A program made the translations under genes and the position numbers. Source: Leisingera aquaemixtae (GTDB lineage: Bacteria > Pseudomonadota > Alphaproteobacteria > Rhodobacterales > Rhodobacteraceae). From it: a DNA stretch of 64,000 nucleotides. The stretch spans positions 248,001 through 312,000 of the forward strand of contig NZ_CYSR01000021.1 in assembly GCF_001458395.1 (NCBI RefSeq). Direction: 5' to 3'. Every line of letters starts with the position of its first letter. The stretch's first letter is position 1. Below, piece after piece: positions 55,090 to 63,962 of the stretch. The notes below the pieces were generated by a model. The model saw only the letters and a list, made by a program, of their open reading frames with translations, was not told where the DNA came from and did no database searches.

Positions 55090-55374
55090 CGCCGGGGACG
55101 GGTGCCCTGGCGGCGGGCCGGACTGGCGCAGCCGCGCCAGCCCAAGTCCGCCGCCGGGGCACCCAGCCCGCCGGGCAAACCCCGGGACAGGCGTGATGCG
55201 CCCTCCGCCGAATCATCCCGTCTCCGCCCCGGCCAGCCGTTAACCAGTTCGCTTCAGATTTTTTGACAATTCGAATTAAATCCCGCCACACTCAGGCACA
55301 CATATCGTTCAAGCGCGTCTGTGTTGCCGGTGGGGGCCGATGCAAACGGGCAGTTTGAAAGGAAAGGTCCGGTT

Positions 55375-56160
55375 ATGACCATCCCCCACTCGCTGCAGCG
55401 GGCTGCAGCCAATGCCGTCGAAACCACGTCAATCCTGCAGGACCCGGCGGTTCTGCGGGCGGCCAACAAGCCGCAATTGCGCCGCTACGAGGTCAGCAGC
55501 CTGCTGCCCGGCGGCGGCATCTCGGAAACCCGCCACATCGCCCCGGCGCTGCCGCTGTTCGAGGACGCCTTCTGCGCGTTTTCCCGCGGCTCGCTGGTGG
55601 AAACCGCCAGCGGCCCGATCGCGGTCGAGGATCTGCTGCCTGGCGATGAAATCCTGACCAGCGGCGGCGGCAGCCAGCCGCTGGTGTGGATCGGCCGCAC
55701 CAGCCTGCTGCCGGCCCGGCCCGGCAGCCGCGGCCGCAGCCACCGGCTCACCAGCTTCATGGCCGACAGCCTCGGCCTGCAAAAACCGTCCGCCAGCCTG
55801 GTGGCCGGCCCTGCCGCCCGGCTGCTCCGCACGCCGCCGCACCTGCAGGGCAGCGGCAAGGGCCCGCTGCTGACCCCCGCGGCCGCGTTTCAGGACGGGA
55901 TGAGCATCTTTGAAACCGCGCCGCCGACGCCGGTGGACATGTACCACCTGTGCCTGCCGCGCCATGCGGTGATCAATGCCGGCGGGCTGGAGTTTGAAAC
56001 CTACCACCCCGGCCCGGATGCGCTGAAGCTCGCCAGCTATGCCATCAAGACCCTGTTTTTGAACATGTTCTCCCACGCCGACAGCATCAGGGACTTCGGC
56101 CCGCTGGCCTACCCCCGTGCCGACGGCCAGGGCGGCAGCGCCGGCGGCCCGCTGCTGTGA
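55375..56160 (+). CDS. Hint (Hedgehog/intein-type) domain protein
   Basis: The 261-residue protein carries a stand-alone Hint domain: [37 protein letters not shown] near residue 60, [22 protein letters not shown] HINT-B His region, and [25 protein letters not shown] near 190. The usual Cys right before F of CFxxGT is replaced by Ala here (the Cys sits one residue earlier), so self-splicing is doubtful. Such proteins abound in Rhodobacteraceae, often as exported or processed factors of unknown use. ATG 55375 follows AAAGGAAAGG. Confidence 0.86.
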
Positions 56161-58914: not shown

Positions 58915-60594
58915 GTGGCAAGCGCGCTCTGGCAGGGCAACTGGATCACCCGCACCCGGATCACCACCGGACTGGTGCTGTTCACCTATGCCTTCTTCCA
59001 CTTCCTCAACATCGGCCTGGGCTTGCTGTCGCCAGACTGGATGGAAGCCTTCCAGGACGTCCGCCAGCTGATCACCCGCAGCGTCCTGGGCGGTCTCATC
59101 CTCTATACCGCGCTGATCCTTCATGCCGGGCTGGCGCTGTGGAGCCTGGCCCGCCGCCGCACCCTGCGGATGCGCCCGGCGGCGGCGCTGCAAATGCTGC
59201 TCGGGTTTCTGATCCCGCTGCAGCTGCTCAGCCATCTGGCCTACACCCGCTATTCGCATGAAATCTACGGCGTCAACGACGAGATGGCCTATGTGATCGT
59301 GCTGATGTGGGCCTCGCCCGAGGCCTGGCAGCAAAGCGCGCTGCTGCTGGCGGTGTGGATCCACGGTTGCATCGGCCTGCATTACTGGCTGCGGCTGACC
59401 CGCTGGTGGCGGCGGCTGATCCCGTGGATGGCCGGGCTGGCGGTGCTGATCCCCGGCTTTGCCCTGGCCGGCTTCCTGACCGAAGGCCGCCGCATCCACG
59501 GCCTGTTCGTAGAGGGCAGCCAGCGCCCGGCGCTGATGGAGGACTTCAACTGGCCCAGCCGCGAGGTTTTTGCCGAGCTGCTCCTGACCGACAGCCGCTG
59601 GTTCACGGCGTTCCTGCTGCTCTTGGGGCTGGCGGCGGCGGCGCATGTGCTGAACCGGCTGCTGCGGCGGCGCCGCGCGGTGCGCATCCGCTATGCCTTC
59701 GGCCCGGAAATCCGCGCCGAACGCGGCCTCACCCTGCTGCAGATGTCGCAGGCGGGCGGCGCCCAGCACACCTCCCTGTGCGGCGGCAAGGGCCGCTGCA
59801 CCACCTGCCGGGTGGGGGGGGAGGAAGGCGGCGACACCCTGCCGCCCCCCGCCCCGCCCGAGGCGCGCAGCCTCGCCCGCGTCAAGGCGCCCGCCAATAT
59901 GCGGCTGGCCTGCCAGATCCGCCCGGAGGCGCCGCTGACCGTCACCCGCATGTTCCGCCCCGACGGCCGCAAGACCCGCGCCCATGCCAGCCAGGGCAGC
60001 GAACAGCAGCTGGCGGTGCTGTTCCTGGACATGCGCGGCTTTACCGCCCGCACCGCCGGCCAGCTGCCCTATGACGTGGTGTTCCTGCTGAACCGCTTCT
60101 TCGACGCCATCGTCCCCGCCGTCACCAGGGCTGGCGGCACGGTGGACAAATACCTGGGCGACGGCCTGCTGGCGCTGTTCGAGGCCCCCACCCCCGCACG
60201 CTCCGCCGAGGCGGCGCTGGAGGCCGCCGCCGCCATCGGCACCGCGCTGCAGGACTTCAATGCCCGGCTGGCCGCGGACGGCGAGCCGCAGATCCGCATC
60301 GGCATCGGCATTCATCTGGGCCAATTGGTGCTGGGCGAGATCGGCAGCGCCGGCCACGCCCCGCGCACCATCATCGGCGGCAGCGTCAACACCGCCAGCC
60401 GGCTGGAGGCCAAGACCAAGGATCTGGGAATCGAACTGCTGGTGTCCGCCCGGGTGCTGCAGGCGGCGGGCTACCCGCTGGACCGGTTTCCGCTGCAGGA
60501 GTTCCAGCTCAGGGGCGTCTCCCGGCCGCTGGCGGCGCTGGCGGTGGAGCAGGCCGCCGCGCTGCCGCGGCTGCTGGCCAAAGAACAGGGTTAA
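58915..60594 (+). CDS. Membrane [2Fe-2S] class III adenylate/guanylate cyclase
   Basis: The 559-residue protein has three parts. Residues 1-~265 hold about six membrane helices with inward-facing histidines (H29, H70, H107, H115, H150, H156), a pattern like haem-binding SdhC-type anchors. Residues ~270-345 form a plant-type [2Fe-2S] domain: C289-x5-C295-x2-C298 and C333. Residues ~360-545 form a class III cyclase with both metal aspartates (D372 in FLDMRGFTAR, D416 in YLGDGLLALF) and GGSVNTASRLE. It probably makes cAMP or cGMP in response to quinone, oxygen or redox state. The GTG start follows AGGAGG. Known relatives include CyaC-type cyclases of rhizobia. Confidence 0.88.
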   Translation: MASALWQGNWITRTRITTGLVLFTYAFFHFLNIGLGLLSPDWMEAFQDVRQLITRSVLGGLILYTALILHAGLALWSLARRRTLRMRPAAALQMLLGFLIPLQLLSHLAYTRYSHEIYGVNDEMAYVIVLMWASPEAWQQSALLLAVWIHGCIGLHYWLRLTRWWRRLIPWMAGLAVLIPGFALAGFLTEGRRIHGLFVEGSQRPALMEDFNWPSREVFAELLLTDSRWFTAFLLLLGLAAAAHVLNRLLRRRRAVRIRYAFGPEIRAERGLTLLQMSQAGGAQHTSLCGGKGRCTTCRVGGEEGGDTLPPPAPPEARSLARVKAPANMRLACQIRPEAPLTVTRMFRPDGRKTRAHASQGSEQQLAVLFLDMRGFTARTAGQLPYDVVFLLNRFFDAIVPAVTRAGGTVDKYLGDGLLALFEAPTPARSAEAALEAAAAIGTALQDFNARLAADGEPQIRIGIGIHLGQLVLGEIGSAGHAPRTIIGGSVNTASRLEAKTKDLGIELLVSARVLQAAGYPLDRFPLQEFQLRGVSRPLAALAVEQAAALPRLLAKEQG

Positions 60595-60781
60595 GCCCTG
60601 CCCGCGGCCCCGCGAACACCCGTTTCCGCCCCGGCGCCGGACCCGGACGATCCCGCCCGCATAACACGCCTTAGGAGAACTTTCTGCCGCACACCCGGAT
60701 GCGTTGCAGCACGGCAACGCGGCAGAAAATCGCCAATCCGAGGCAATTCCCCCTTTGATTCCCGGCCGAACCATGCAATGC

Positions 60782-60795
60782 GTTCACGCGTGAAC
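60782..60795. promoter_or_regulatory. Perfect 14-bp palindrome upstream of the MarR-ATP sulfurylase fusion
   Basis: GTTCACGCGTGAAC lies 34-47 bases before the GTG start of the fusion gene. It could be an operator for the fused MarR-like domain itself. The gap 60595-60828 has nothing else notable. Confidence 0.5.
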
Positions 60796-60828
60796 ACACT
60801 TTGACCCCCGCCCTGGACCCGCTGCGCC

Positions 60829-62904
60829 GTGCCTGAGACCCTGACCACATCCACCCCGGACGAGCAAGACCTGCTCTTCCGCCTCCTGCGCCAGCTCGAT
60901 GCGGCGCCGGATGCCTCGCAGCGGACTACCGCCGCGGCGCTGGGGATCTCGCTGGGACGGCTCAACACCTTGCTGCGGTCTGCGGCAGAGGGCGGCCTGG
61001 TCACCGTCAGCGCCCGCCCCGGCCCCGACAAGCGGCAGCGGTTTGCCTATTCGCTGACCACCCGCGGCGCGGCGGAGAAAGTGCGGCTCACCGATCAATT
61101 CCTCGCCCGCAAGCTCGCAGACTACAACGCGCTGCATGCGGAACTCACCGGCTCCGCTAGCGGCCTCCCCCCTCTCAAACACAGGACCAACCCGATGCAA
61201 AGCAACCTGGCTCCCATTCCTGAGCTTTATGTCTCCTACGAAAGCGCCCAGAAACTGAAGGTCGAAGCGGCCGATCTGGTCAGCTGGGATCTGACCCCGC
61301 GCCAGATCTGCGACCTGGAGCTCTTGATGAACGGCGGCTTCAACCCGCTGAAGGGGTTCCTGTCTCAGGCAGACTACGACGGCGTCATCGAAAACATGCG
61401 CCTGGCCGACGGCACCCTGTGGCCGATGCCGATCACCCTGGACGTCTCCGAAGACTTCGCCGCCAAGCTCGAAGCGGGCCAGGACATTGCCCTGCGCGAC
61501 CAGGAAGGCGTGATCCTCGCCACCATGACCGTGACCGACAACTGGGTGCCGAACAAGGCGCGCGAGGCGGAGAAGGTCTTTGGCGCCGATGACGACGCCC
61601 ACCCGGCAGTGAACTACCTGCACAACACCGCGGGCAAGGTCTACCTGGGCGGCCCCGTGACCGGCATCCAGCAGCCCGTCCACTATGACTTCCGCGGCCG
61701 CCGCGACACCCCGAACGAGCTGCGCGCCTATTTCCGCAAGCTGGGCTGGAACAAGGTTGTTGCCTTCCAGACCCGCAACCCGCTGCACCGCGCCCACCAG
61801 GAGCTGACCTTCCGCGCCGCGCGCGAAGCCCAGGCCAACCTGCTGATCCACCCGGTGGTCGGCATGACCAAGCCGGGCGACGTTGACCACTTCACCCGCG
61901 TGCGCTGCTACGAGGCGGTGCTGGACAAATACCCGGCCGCCACCACCTCCATGTCGCTCTTGAACCTGGCAATGCGTATGGCAGGCCCGCGCGAGGCGGT
62001 CTGGCACGGCCTGATCCGCAAGAACCACGGCTGCACCCATTTCATCGTCGGCCGCGACCACGCAGGCCCCGGCAAGAACTCTGCCGGCGAGGACTTCTAT
62101 GGCCCCTATGACGCACAGGAGCTGTTCCGCGAGTTCCAGGGCGAAATGGGCATCGAAATGGTCGACTTCAAACACATGGTCTATGTGCAGGAGCGCGCCC
62201 AGTACGAGCCGAACGACGAGATCGAAGACCGCGACAACGTCACCATCCTGAACATCTCCGGCACCGAACTGCGCCGCCGCCTGGCCGAAGGCCTGGAAAT
62301 CCCGGAATGGTTCTCCTTCCCGGAAGTGGTGTCCGAACTGCGCAAGACCAAGCCGCCGCGCTCCAAGCAGGGCTTCACCGTGTTCTTCACCGGCTTCTCT
62401 GGCTCCGGCAAATCCACCATCGCCAACGCGCTGATGGTCAAGCTGATGGAAATGGGCGGCCGCCCGGTGACCCTGCTCGATGGCGACATCGTGCGGAAAA
62501 ACCTCAGCTCCGAGCTGGGCTTCTCGAAAGAGCACCGCGACCTCAACATCCGCCGCATCGGCTATGTGGCGTCTGAGATCACCAAGAACGGCGGCATCGC
62601 CATCTGCGCCCCGATCGCGCCCTACGCCACCACCCGCCGCGCCGTGCGCGAGGACGTGGAACAGTTCGGCGCCTTCGTCGAAGTGCACGTTGCCACCTCG
62701 ATCGAGGAATGCGAGCGCCGCGACCGCAAGGGTCTGTATAAACTGGCCCGCGAAGGCAAGATCAAGGAGTTCACCGGCATCTCCGACCCCTACGACGTGC
62801 CGCAGAACGCCGAACTGGTGGTCGAGACCGAGAACGTCGACGTCGACAACTGCGCCCACCAGGTGCTCTTGAAGCTGGAAAGCATGGGCCTGATCAAGGC
62901 CTGA
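60829..62904 (+). CDS. MarR-type EPS-associated regulator fused to bifunctional ATP sulfurylase/APS kinase
   Basis: The single frame encodes 691 residues. Residues ~8-105 read like the MarR-family EPS-associated regulators: LLFRLLRQLDAAPDASQRTTAAALGISLGRLNTLLRSAAEGGLV, then a wing and EKVRLTDQFLARKLADYNALHAEL. From residue 123 (MQSNLAPIPELYVSYES) on it is ATP sulfurylase (TRNPLHRAHQELTFRAA, VGRDHAGPGKNS) and then APS kinase (FTGFSGSGKSTIANAL near 523, GDIVRKNLSSELGFS). No stop separates them. An internal ATG (61195) has AGGA eight bases upstream, so a 569-residue enzyme without the regulator could also be made. The product is PAPS from sulfate and ATP. Confidence 0.88.
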   Translation: MPETLTTSTPDEQDLLFRLLRQLDAAPDASQRTTAAALGISLGRLNTLLRSAAEGGLVTVSARPGPDKRQRFAYSLTTRGAAEKVRLTDQFLARKLADYNALHAELTGSASGLPPLKHRTNPMQSNLAPIPELYVSYESAQKLKVEAADLVSWDLTPRQICDLELLMNGGFNPLKGFLSQADYDGVIENMRLADGTLWPMPITLDVSEDFAAKLEAGQDIALRDQEGVILATMTVTDNWVPNKAREAEKVFGADDDAHPAVNYLHNTAGKVYLGGPVTGIQQPVHYDFRGRRDTPNELRAYFRKLGWNKVVAFQTRNPLHRAHQELTFRAAREAQANLLIHPVVGMTKPGDVDHFTRVRCYEAVLDKYPAATTSMSLLNLAMRMAGPREAVWHGLIRKNHGCTHFIVGRDHAGPGKNSAGEDFYGPYDAQELFREFQGEMGIEMVDFKHMVYVQERAQYEPNDEIEDRDNVTILNISGTELRRRLAEGLEIPEWFSFPEVVSELRKTKPPRSKQGFTVFFTGFSGSGKSTIANALMVKLMEMGGRPVTLLDGDIVRKNLSSELGFSKEHRDLNIRRIGYVASEITKNGGIAICAPIAPYATTRRAVREDVEQFGAFVEVHVATSIEECERRDRKGLYKLAREGKIKEFTGISDPYDVPQNAELVVETENVDVDNCAHQVLLKLESMGLIKA

Positions 62905-62931: not shown

Positions 62932-62958
62932 CGGCCCGCCAATTGGCGGGCCGTTTTC
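62932..62958 (+). terminator. Terminator after the sulfurylase/kinase gene
   Basis: CGGCCCGCC / GGCGGGCCG form a 9-bp stem with an AATT loop followed by TTTTCC. Confidence 0.88.
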
Positions 62959-63146
62959 CGATTGGCCGATTGCGGGCAGTGGCAGCCGCCGCACCGTTCC
63001 GGCAGCCCCCGCCTCCCCGCCGGCGCTTTGGTCAAAAAGGCAACGGTCCCCCGCTGATGCGCATGGGGCTGCCCCGGAACGCTTCCCGGATCGGCGGAAA
63101 ACCGCTAATCATCCAGCAAAAATACAGCATTACAGGCGGATTTCAG

Positions 63147-63962
63147 GTGCGTGTCGTTTCTCTTTGGATCGGTGAAGAGCTTCCGCTGCTGACACAGCTG
63201 GCGGTCATGTCCTGGCAGCGCCACACCTGCGGCGTCGACCTCTATGTCACTGACCCCGCCTGCCCGCCCCGCGGCGTGCCGCCCGGCGTCTGCCTCAAAC
63301 CGGCCGGAGAGATCCTGCCGCTGGATACGCTGGAGCGCCTGAAGCCCCTGATCCGCACCCGCTACAGCCCGCGGCAGGAGCGGCTCAGCTACTCCGACAT
63401 CTTCCGGATCGCGCTTCAGAAACAGGGCCTTGGGGTCTGGCTGGATACCGATGTCATCCTGTTCCAGGACTTCCAGCCGGACCCGGCCCGGGCCTGGTTC
63501 GCCTTCGACGGCGCGGCGACGGTGGGCTGCTCGGCGCTGTATTTCCCGCCCGGTGACCCCTTTGTCTGCGACTTCCTCAAGGTGCTTGACCATCCCGAGC
63601 TGTGGCCGGACTGGCTCGGCTTCAAACGGCGGGTGGTCAAACCCGCGCTGCTGCGCGCGCTTGGCCGGAAATTCCGCGCAACCGATCTCGGCATGACCGT
63701 CTATGGCAACGAGGCGATGGTGCGGATCCTCAAGCGGCAGAACCGCTTCGGGGAGGCCAAGCCGATGAAATCAATGTATTACCTGCCGGGCGCCAGCTGT
63801 GATTTCTATGACCCGGCGCACACGCAGGCGCTGCTTGGCCAGCCCGACATCATCGGCCTGCACGTGCATCAAAAAGGCCCCTCTACCCAGCCGCCCCGCA
63901 GCGGCAGCGCGTTTGATGTGACGCTGCGCGCCTACGGCCTGACCGCCGCGGTACCCGCCTGA
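63147..63962 (+). CDS. Putative sugar transferase with DxD motif
   Basis: The 271-residue soluble protein resembles glycosyltransferases of the Gly_transf_sug/GT32-like type: VRVVSLWIGEELPLLTQLAVMSWQRH at the start, LSYSDIFRIALQKQGLGVWLDTDVILF with the metal-binding DTD near residue 100, then AWFAFDGAATVGCSAL and a C-terminal DFYDPAHTQALLG, HVHQKGPS. It probably adds a sugar to a surface polysaccharide. The GTG start at 63147 (AGGCGG upstream) is preferred; a longer ATG frame would add about 30 atypical residues. It follows the PAPS gene after its terminator. Confidence 0.72.
   Translation: MRVVSLWIGEELPLLTQLAVMSWQRHTCGVDLYVTDPACPPRGVPPGVCLKPAGEILPLDTLERLKPLIRTRYSPRQERLSYSDIFRIALQKQGLGVWLDTDVILFQDFQPDPARAWFAFDGAATVGCSALYFPPGDPFVCDFLKVLDHPELWPDWLGFKRRVVKPALLRALGRKFRATDLGMTVYGNEAMVRILKRQNRFGEAKPMKSMYYLPGASCDFYDPAHTQALLGQPDIIGLHVHQKGPSTQPPRSGSAFDVTLRAYGLTAAVPA

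Follow-up and report, generated by a model that had tools for sequence, protein, structure and literature searches.

Why does an enzyme of sulfate activation in Leisingera aquaemixtae carry a DNA-binding domain at its N terminus, and what would such a composite protein do? The question arises near the end of the 64,000-nucleotide stretch of DNA analysed here (the window), where the original prediction placed a winged helix and an ATP sulfurylase/APS kinase in one frame. We found that this frame indeed runs from GTG to stop (60829-62904) through 691 codons without a stop or frameshift, and that both of its parts are matched by profiles. The gene and its parts are the following:

60829..62904, plus strand: fusion gene, long form with a GTG start, 691 amino acids (open reading frame, profile matches, kept in relatives)
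60850..61149, plus strand: winged-helix (MarR-type) domain, residues 8-107 (profile match, AlphaFold2 model, matches to MarR-family structures)
61150..61194, plus strand: linker, residues 108-122 (in frame across fused loci, sequence variable)
61195..62904, plus strand: short form, the bare enzyme of 569 amino acids from an internal ATG (predicted product, start conserved)
61195..62346, plus strand: ATP sulfurylase part, residues 123-506 (PUA_2 and ATP-sulfurylase matches, QTRNPLHRAH and GRDHAG)
62359..62898, plus strand: APS kinase part, residues 511-690 (APS_kinase match, P-loop GFSGSGKS)

Residues 121-690 matched the profile of the bifunctional sulfate adenylyltransferase/APS kinase (NF004040) with 1050 bits against a cut-off of 669. 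Both halves contain their catalytic motifs (QTRNPLHRAH, GRDHAG, and GFSGSGKS). Residues 13-106 matched TIGR04176 (MarR_EPS) with 78.3 bits in the full protein and 82.8 bits when the N terminus was searched alone, in both cases below the equivalog cut-off of 88. The computed masses of the long and short forms are 76.9 and 63.8 kDa, slightly above the 75 and 62 kDa initially proposed for the two products. The whole protein found a single match in its own 4.6-Mb genome, and this gene is the only sat/cysC match there.

The fusion is widely kept. In 20 of 21 genomes of the genus, its own included, the 122-residue N terminus belongs to an open frame 690 codons long or longer; the sole miss, G017, is a 410-contig assembly with 90% completeness. 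Three other genera carried the fusion among 61 genomes searched with the N terminus. Across 295 Rhodobacteraceae genomes, taken at about one per genus, 277 matched the whole protein and at least 57 of these are fused, which bears out the expectation that this N terminus would be found joined to sat-cysC elsewhere. A class-wide search with MarR_EPS found a match at E 1e-12 in 28 of 142 genomes; two of these matches lie on a frame longer than 600 codons, both in Rhodobacteraceae. A protein search with the N terminus yielded 682 matches, the best 120 of which include entries from Leisingera, Shimia, Pseudophaeobacter, and Aliiroseovarius; the nearest named entry among the matches listed is from Leisingera daeponensis (99% over the N terminus). 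The named entries among these 120 of 682 matches are annotated as sulfate adenylyltransferase and/or APS kinase; none of these names mentions a regulator, and so the front half has apparently escaped notice.

Averaged over 1653 pairs, pN/pS was 0.33 in the winged helix, 0.49 in the 18 codons that precede the internal start, and 0.21 at the beginning of the enzyme; the front part is therefore coding and under selection. The frame between the domains is open and the N terminus conserved, the two points on which the proposed fusion could have failed. One locus, L068 (G281), has a TAG within the genome-search match, yet its reading frame stays open from residue 14 onward. Such a fusion is far beyond chance, and it is nearly certain that it is real and that its front part is under coding constraint. 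A neighboring gene whose stop had been lost in this strain alone was rejected as an origin, as the open frame is shared by the genus and by other genera.

The AlphaFold2 model of residues 1-122 (mean pLDDT 86.8) shows a winged helix of the MarR type with a long C-terminal helix, and its top structural matches are MarR-family and similar regulators. A sequence search of the PDB with the N terminus gave nothing significant (best E 0.45). The solved structures closest to the enzyme, over 548 residues, are 1i2d and 1m8p, both of the Penicillium chrysogenum ATP sulfurylase. The full-length model was poor (pLDDT 61.5) and was set aside; thus, no path from the enzyme to the DNA-binding domain is visible in it.

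If the winged helix binds DNA, its site could be the perfect palindrome that had been noticed just upstream of the frame and that we located at 60782-60795. The features of this promoter region are the following:

60782..60795, no strand: palindrome GTTCACGCGTGAAC, candidate operator for the winged helix of the fusion (co-occurrence with the fusion, single site in its own genome, half-sites in kin)
60753..60758, plus strand: -35-like word CTTTGA (assigned by reading, putative function)
60776..60781, plus strand: -10-like word CAATGC, 17 bases from the -35-like word and abutting the palindrome (assigned by reading, putative function)

We found the pattern GTTCA-N4-TGAAC, with variable middle bases, upstream of the frame in 73 of 75 fused loci, as compared to none of 55 unfused loci within the 400 bp upstream that were searched. 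The expectation by chance, from the genome-wide rate, is about 0.0003 per 240-bp stretch. The two fused loci counted as misses are L049, which has a one-base variant twice, and L053, in which the contig edge cuts through the site. The unfused loci are those retrieved from the 277 matching genomes, 18 of them chosen first because the match reached upstream; L032, a duplicate of G008, was left out, and L065, a relic described below, was counted in neither group. In a named set sharing some genomes with the first, all 30 fused loci had the site and none of the 48 unfused loci did, with L212, which aligns from residue 11, moved by hand from unfused to fused; this set comprises 78 of 80 loci, as L233 and L259 lacked an anchor.

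Alignment of 56 fused promoters showed that a CTTT word is kept at -29 to -26 and TG..ATG at -8 to -2 from the palindrome (the row of L037 is out of register in the promoter logo, its internal start having been moved by 9 nucleotides). These conserved -35-like and -10-like words would put the site over the likely transcription start, a usual position for a repressor. A second similar site lies 29-49 bp upstream in 12 of 58 loci.

The half-sites recur beside kindred winged helices elsewhere in Alphaproteobacteria, most of which carry a different C-terminal part. GTTCA-N4/5-TGAAC was present within 350 bp upstream in 21 of 29 such loci, with a spacer of five bases in 20 and of four in one (L027), and in none of the 29 across 1100 bp downstream of the match start. 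These loci are 26 of the class-wide matches, the fusions L155 and L156 being excluded, and three from the 61-genome search with the N terminus. This ties the half-sites to the domain itself rather than only to the gene for the enzyme. L154 and L025, clear MarR_EPS members scoring above the cut-off, lack the site, as does the similar L026. MarR_EPS proteins and the longer kin resemble the fusion in their homologous winged helix and, for many of the longer kin, in the GTTCA-N5-TGAAC upstream; they differ in having no fused sulfate-activation enzyme and a spacer of five rather than four bases, and the wing of the longer, N5-spacer kin is four residues shorter than that of the fused form. A group among these kin (L157-L181) consists of regulators of about 200 residues with a similar winged helix, often preceded by two or three GTTCA-N5-TGAAC sites, and apparently forms a self-regulating family of its own; no Pfam family matched its C-terminal part in the two members scanned.

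Because the palindrome travels with the DNA-binding domain, self-regulation is likely, in agreement with the autoregulation originally suggested, and the winged-helix protein probably binds its own promoter. This would make the long form a trigger enzyme, a DNA-binding domain and an enzyme sharing one chain. The reading that we favor, and hold to be rather likely from the comparison of loci, is that of a BirA-like trigger enzyme controlling its own promoter, complemented by bare enzyme from the internal start.

The genome of L. aquaemixtae has one perfect site, at the promoter of the fusion gene; sites with up to two mismatches number six as compared to five for the reversed pattern, and sites with a five-base spacer six as compared to none. 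GTTCA-N4-TGAAC occurs 126 times in 30 fused and 132 times in 30 unfused genomes, and the reversed pattern 21 and 26 times. We therefore rejected a wider regulon tied to the fusion, the fused genomes showing no excess of sites. As the motif is five to six times commoner than its reverse in both groups alike, other proteins may use it.

A single site at its own promoter, with no extra sites in fused genomes, would also be expected if self-regulation were real and the enzyme part sensed nothing, the winged helix simply tying the dose of repressor to the dose of enzyme in a plain negative feedback. The variable sequence of the linker fits this explanation too. However, a separate small repressor would suffice for such a loop, and a fusion retained in so many genera suggests a role for the connection with the enzyme; we consider an enzyme part that senses nothing unlikely. 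The favored trigger enzyme differs from it in that the enzyme would inform the DNA-binding domain.

The second unusual feature of the gene is the internal ATG at 61195, reported from the start to have an AGGA of its own, which we found as follows:

61183..61186, plus strand: AGGA, predicted ribosome-binding site of the internal start (present in 74 of 75 fused loci, distance kept)

At the internal start, the codon with which unfused orthologues open, 73 of 75 fused loci have ATG and the other two GTG. AGGA stands 8 nucleotides ahead of this codon in 74 and CGGA in one; the start of L037 was shifted by 9 nucleotides after inspection. In the partly overlapping named set, AGGA was found at the internal start of all 30 fused loci (L212 included by hand). 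The arginine codon of this AGGA, AGG, is otherwise rare in these genes (19 of 3141 arginine codons, 0.6%). The residue after the internal start varies (T in 55 loci, S in 11, N in 5, M in 3, and I in 1), while its codon always begins with A. When the linkers of 58 nonredundant loci were recoded synonymously 1000 times, the mean Shine-Dalgarno run was 1.83 and the maximum 2.36, as compared to 4.28 observed. Thus, a ribosome-binding site and start codon are conserved inside the frame, and the sequence looks selected as a start signal rather than for its amino acids.

The internal start, with a run of 4.28 and a duplex energy of -5.0, also exceeds the first start (2.57 and -2.7), which was defined as the first in-frame ATG or GTG past the palindrome and is GTG in 12 of 58 loci. 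The corresponding values are 3.11 and -4.9 for the starts of unfused enzymes, and 1.84 and -3.1 for 491 other in-frame ATGs of the enzyme. This strong constraint at the nucleotide level makes two products likely; that an enzyme-regulator and a free enzyme come from one gene, as originally proposed, is on this pattern very probable. The weaker ribosome-binding signals of the first start imply that most of the protein would be bare enzyme and a minority sensor.

The AGGA-ATG could instead be a programmed pause or folding signal between the domains, with the long form alone being made. It does lie in the linker, where a pause could aid folding, and AGG is a rare codon. Against this, the codon 8 nucleotides downstream is ATG or GTG in 75 of 75 loci while its neighbors vary, the four valine cases seen (two in each locus set) are all GTG, and unfused orthologues begin at the same codon. 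We regard a pause signal as improbable, and an internal start producing the bare enzyme as the better account.

The neighborhood bears on what the enzyme is for. The original prediction coupled PAPS supply to exopolysaccharide sulfation through the regulator and drew on an adjoining sugar transferase. The similarity of the winged helix to MarR_EPS and eight Sulfotransfer_3 matches in the genome speak for this role. The domain, however, scores below the MarR_EPS cut-off, the adjoining gene (62943-63962) has a homolog in 0 of 78 other loci and matches no Pfam family at E 0.001, and all the Sulfotransfer_3 matches lie on other contigs, so that the search for sulfotransferase genes nearby, proposed as a check, gave a negative answer for this family. 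The genes that recur within 4 kb of fused and unfused loci alike are trxB-, Lrp-, Hsp20-, and purE-like (labels assigned by reading), not those of an exopolysaccharide locus. Neither profile score, neighbors, nor sulfotransferase positions tie the gene to exopolysaccharide, and such a coupling is very improbable. Because this gene is the only sat/cysC match, alongside one PAPS-reductase-family gene, which lies on another contig, ordinary sulfate assimilation is the simpler role. Elsewhere in the window, a frame at 58915-60594 combines a 2Fe-2S ferredoxin domain (PF00111) with an adenylate/guanylate cyclase domain (PF00211), with hydrophobic stretches ahead by reading, and a Hint-domain protein (PF13403) is encoded at 55321-56160.

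Fused and unfused genes occupy the same chromosomal place, the trxB-like gene being found upstream in 30 of the 31 fused loci and in 36 of the 48 unfused ones. An enzyme tree of 561 columns requires 18 changes of the fused state, and starred branches force at least 6 of these; a poorly resolved tree of 115 columns gives 26, at least 4 of them forced. The front module has thus been gained or lost repeatedly in place, the trees being compatible with one origin followed by losses, with transfer, and with several gains. Because the fused state is patchy, the enzyme evidently works without the winged helix. A phage origin was rejected, given that no PHROG match and no near DNA match among phages was found. 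Plasmid records gave 20 weaker matches, and the 15 listed were all named MarR_EPS, none of them covering 80% of the query.

In the 104 regions upstream of unfused genes that were searched, one remnant of the winged helix was found, that of L065 itself (G201, a draft genome 80% complete), in which a decayed winged-helix N terminus precedes the enzyme and the internal start region is kept. Three further matches, at E 0.18 to 0.57, were taken as chance. A long form produced rarely if at all, with a separate or dead frame upstream and an enzyme beginning at 61195, would suit the weak first start and its GTG in 12 of 58 loci; this reading is scarcely credible given a pN/pS of 0.33 in the winged helix, a frame open in fused loci, a confident fold, a site kept alongside, and the contrast with L065, which shows how decay looks.

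We thus return to the self-regulating trigger enzyme. From the comparison of loci we infer that the long product (76.9 kDa) would bind the GTTCA-N4-TGAAC that overlies the likely start of transcription in its own promoter, and that it would most probably repress the gene. The short product (63.8 kDa, from the ATG at 61195) would be an ordinary bare enzyme providing the bulk of the supply. The enzyme part of the long form, perhaps as a member of mixed oligomers, would signal the state of sulfate activation through bound PAPS or APS, and this state would set DNA binding. Whether a ligand controls DNA binding we judge to be an even matter. PAPS is the first ligand to consider, since APS and PAPS are the products of this enzyme and PAPS regulates a close relative; that it is PAPS in particular is a tentative suggestion. 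Equally speculative, and short of an even chance, is a one-gene homeostat, in which long and short forms would share one allosteric oligomer, PAPS occupancy of the enzyme would be passed to the winged helix, and the enzyme's product would thereby set transcription of the enzyme's gene. Winged helix, operator, and internal start would then form one removable module that has repeatedly come and gone at a fixed place.

The elements of this arrangement have precedents. BirA, a biotin ligase and repressor, likewise combines an enzyme with a DNA-binding domain at its N terminus; this domain is a winged helix, and the adenylate intermediate serves as co-repressor. Only some members of the BirA enzyme family have the DNA-binding domain, and BirA targets the biotin operon, with autoregulation confined to one group (PMC5343134). 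In the fusion, by contrast, the site lies in the promoter of the enzyme's own gene, APS and PAPS are the products, and the internal start offers the enzyme alone. PutA, a proline dehydrogenase and repressor, is similar in being an enzyme that represses its own operon and differs in belonging to another pathway; its DNA-binding fold also differs from that of the fusion. PutA is described as a catabolic enzyme repressing its own operon (PMC6978683). AerR of Rhodobacter capsulatus, a related bacterium, comes in two in-frame lengths from one gene via an internal start; these forms are 41 residues apart, use a Leu codon and two promoters, and are both regulatory (PMC6199135), whereas the short form of the fusion would be a plain enzyme. 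The P. chrysogenum ATP sulfurylase is described as a hexamer in which PAPS regulates the sulfurylase via a kinase-like domain (PMC4220642, PMC3734648) that is itself inactive (PMC3734648). It has no winged helix, and in contrast to its inactive kinase-like domain, the Leisingera enzyme has an intact P-loop. Thus, DNA-binding enzymes (BirA and PutA) and two-length proteins from one frame (AerR) are already known kinds. In the open-access literature we found no description of a winged helix on an ATP sulfurylase/APS kinase with its own operator and internal start, in agreement with the original remark that no description of such a fusion was known.

Rhodobacterales are major sulfur cyclers of the ocean. 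The open-access literature contained nothing that settles how sulfate activation is controlled in this order, and our results suggest that this control may reside inside the enzyme itself. The locus is a small and testable system in which an enzyme may sense what it produces, and relatives with and without the fusion provide natural controls; it is also an instance in which two proteins encoded in a single frame were predicted purely from comparison. In many marine bacteria of the Roseobacter group, one gene may thus encode both an enzyme and its own sensor-regulator.
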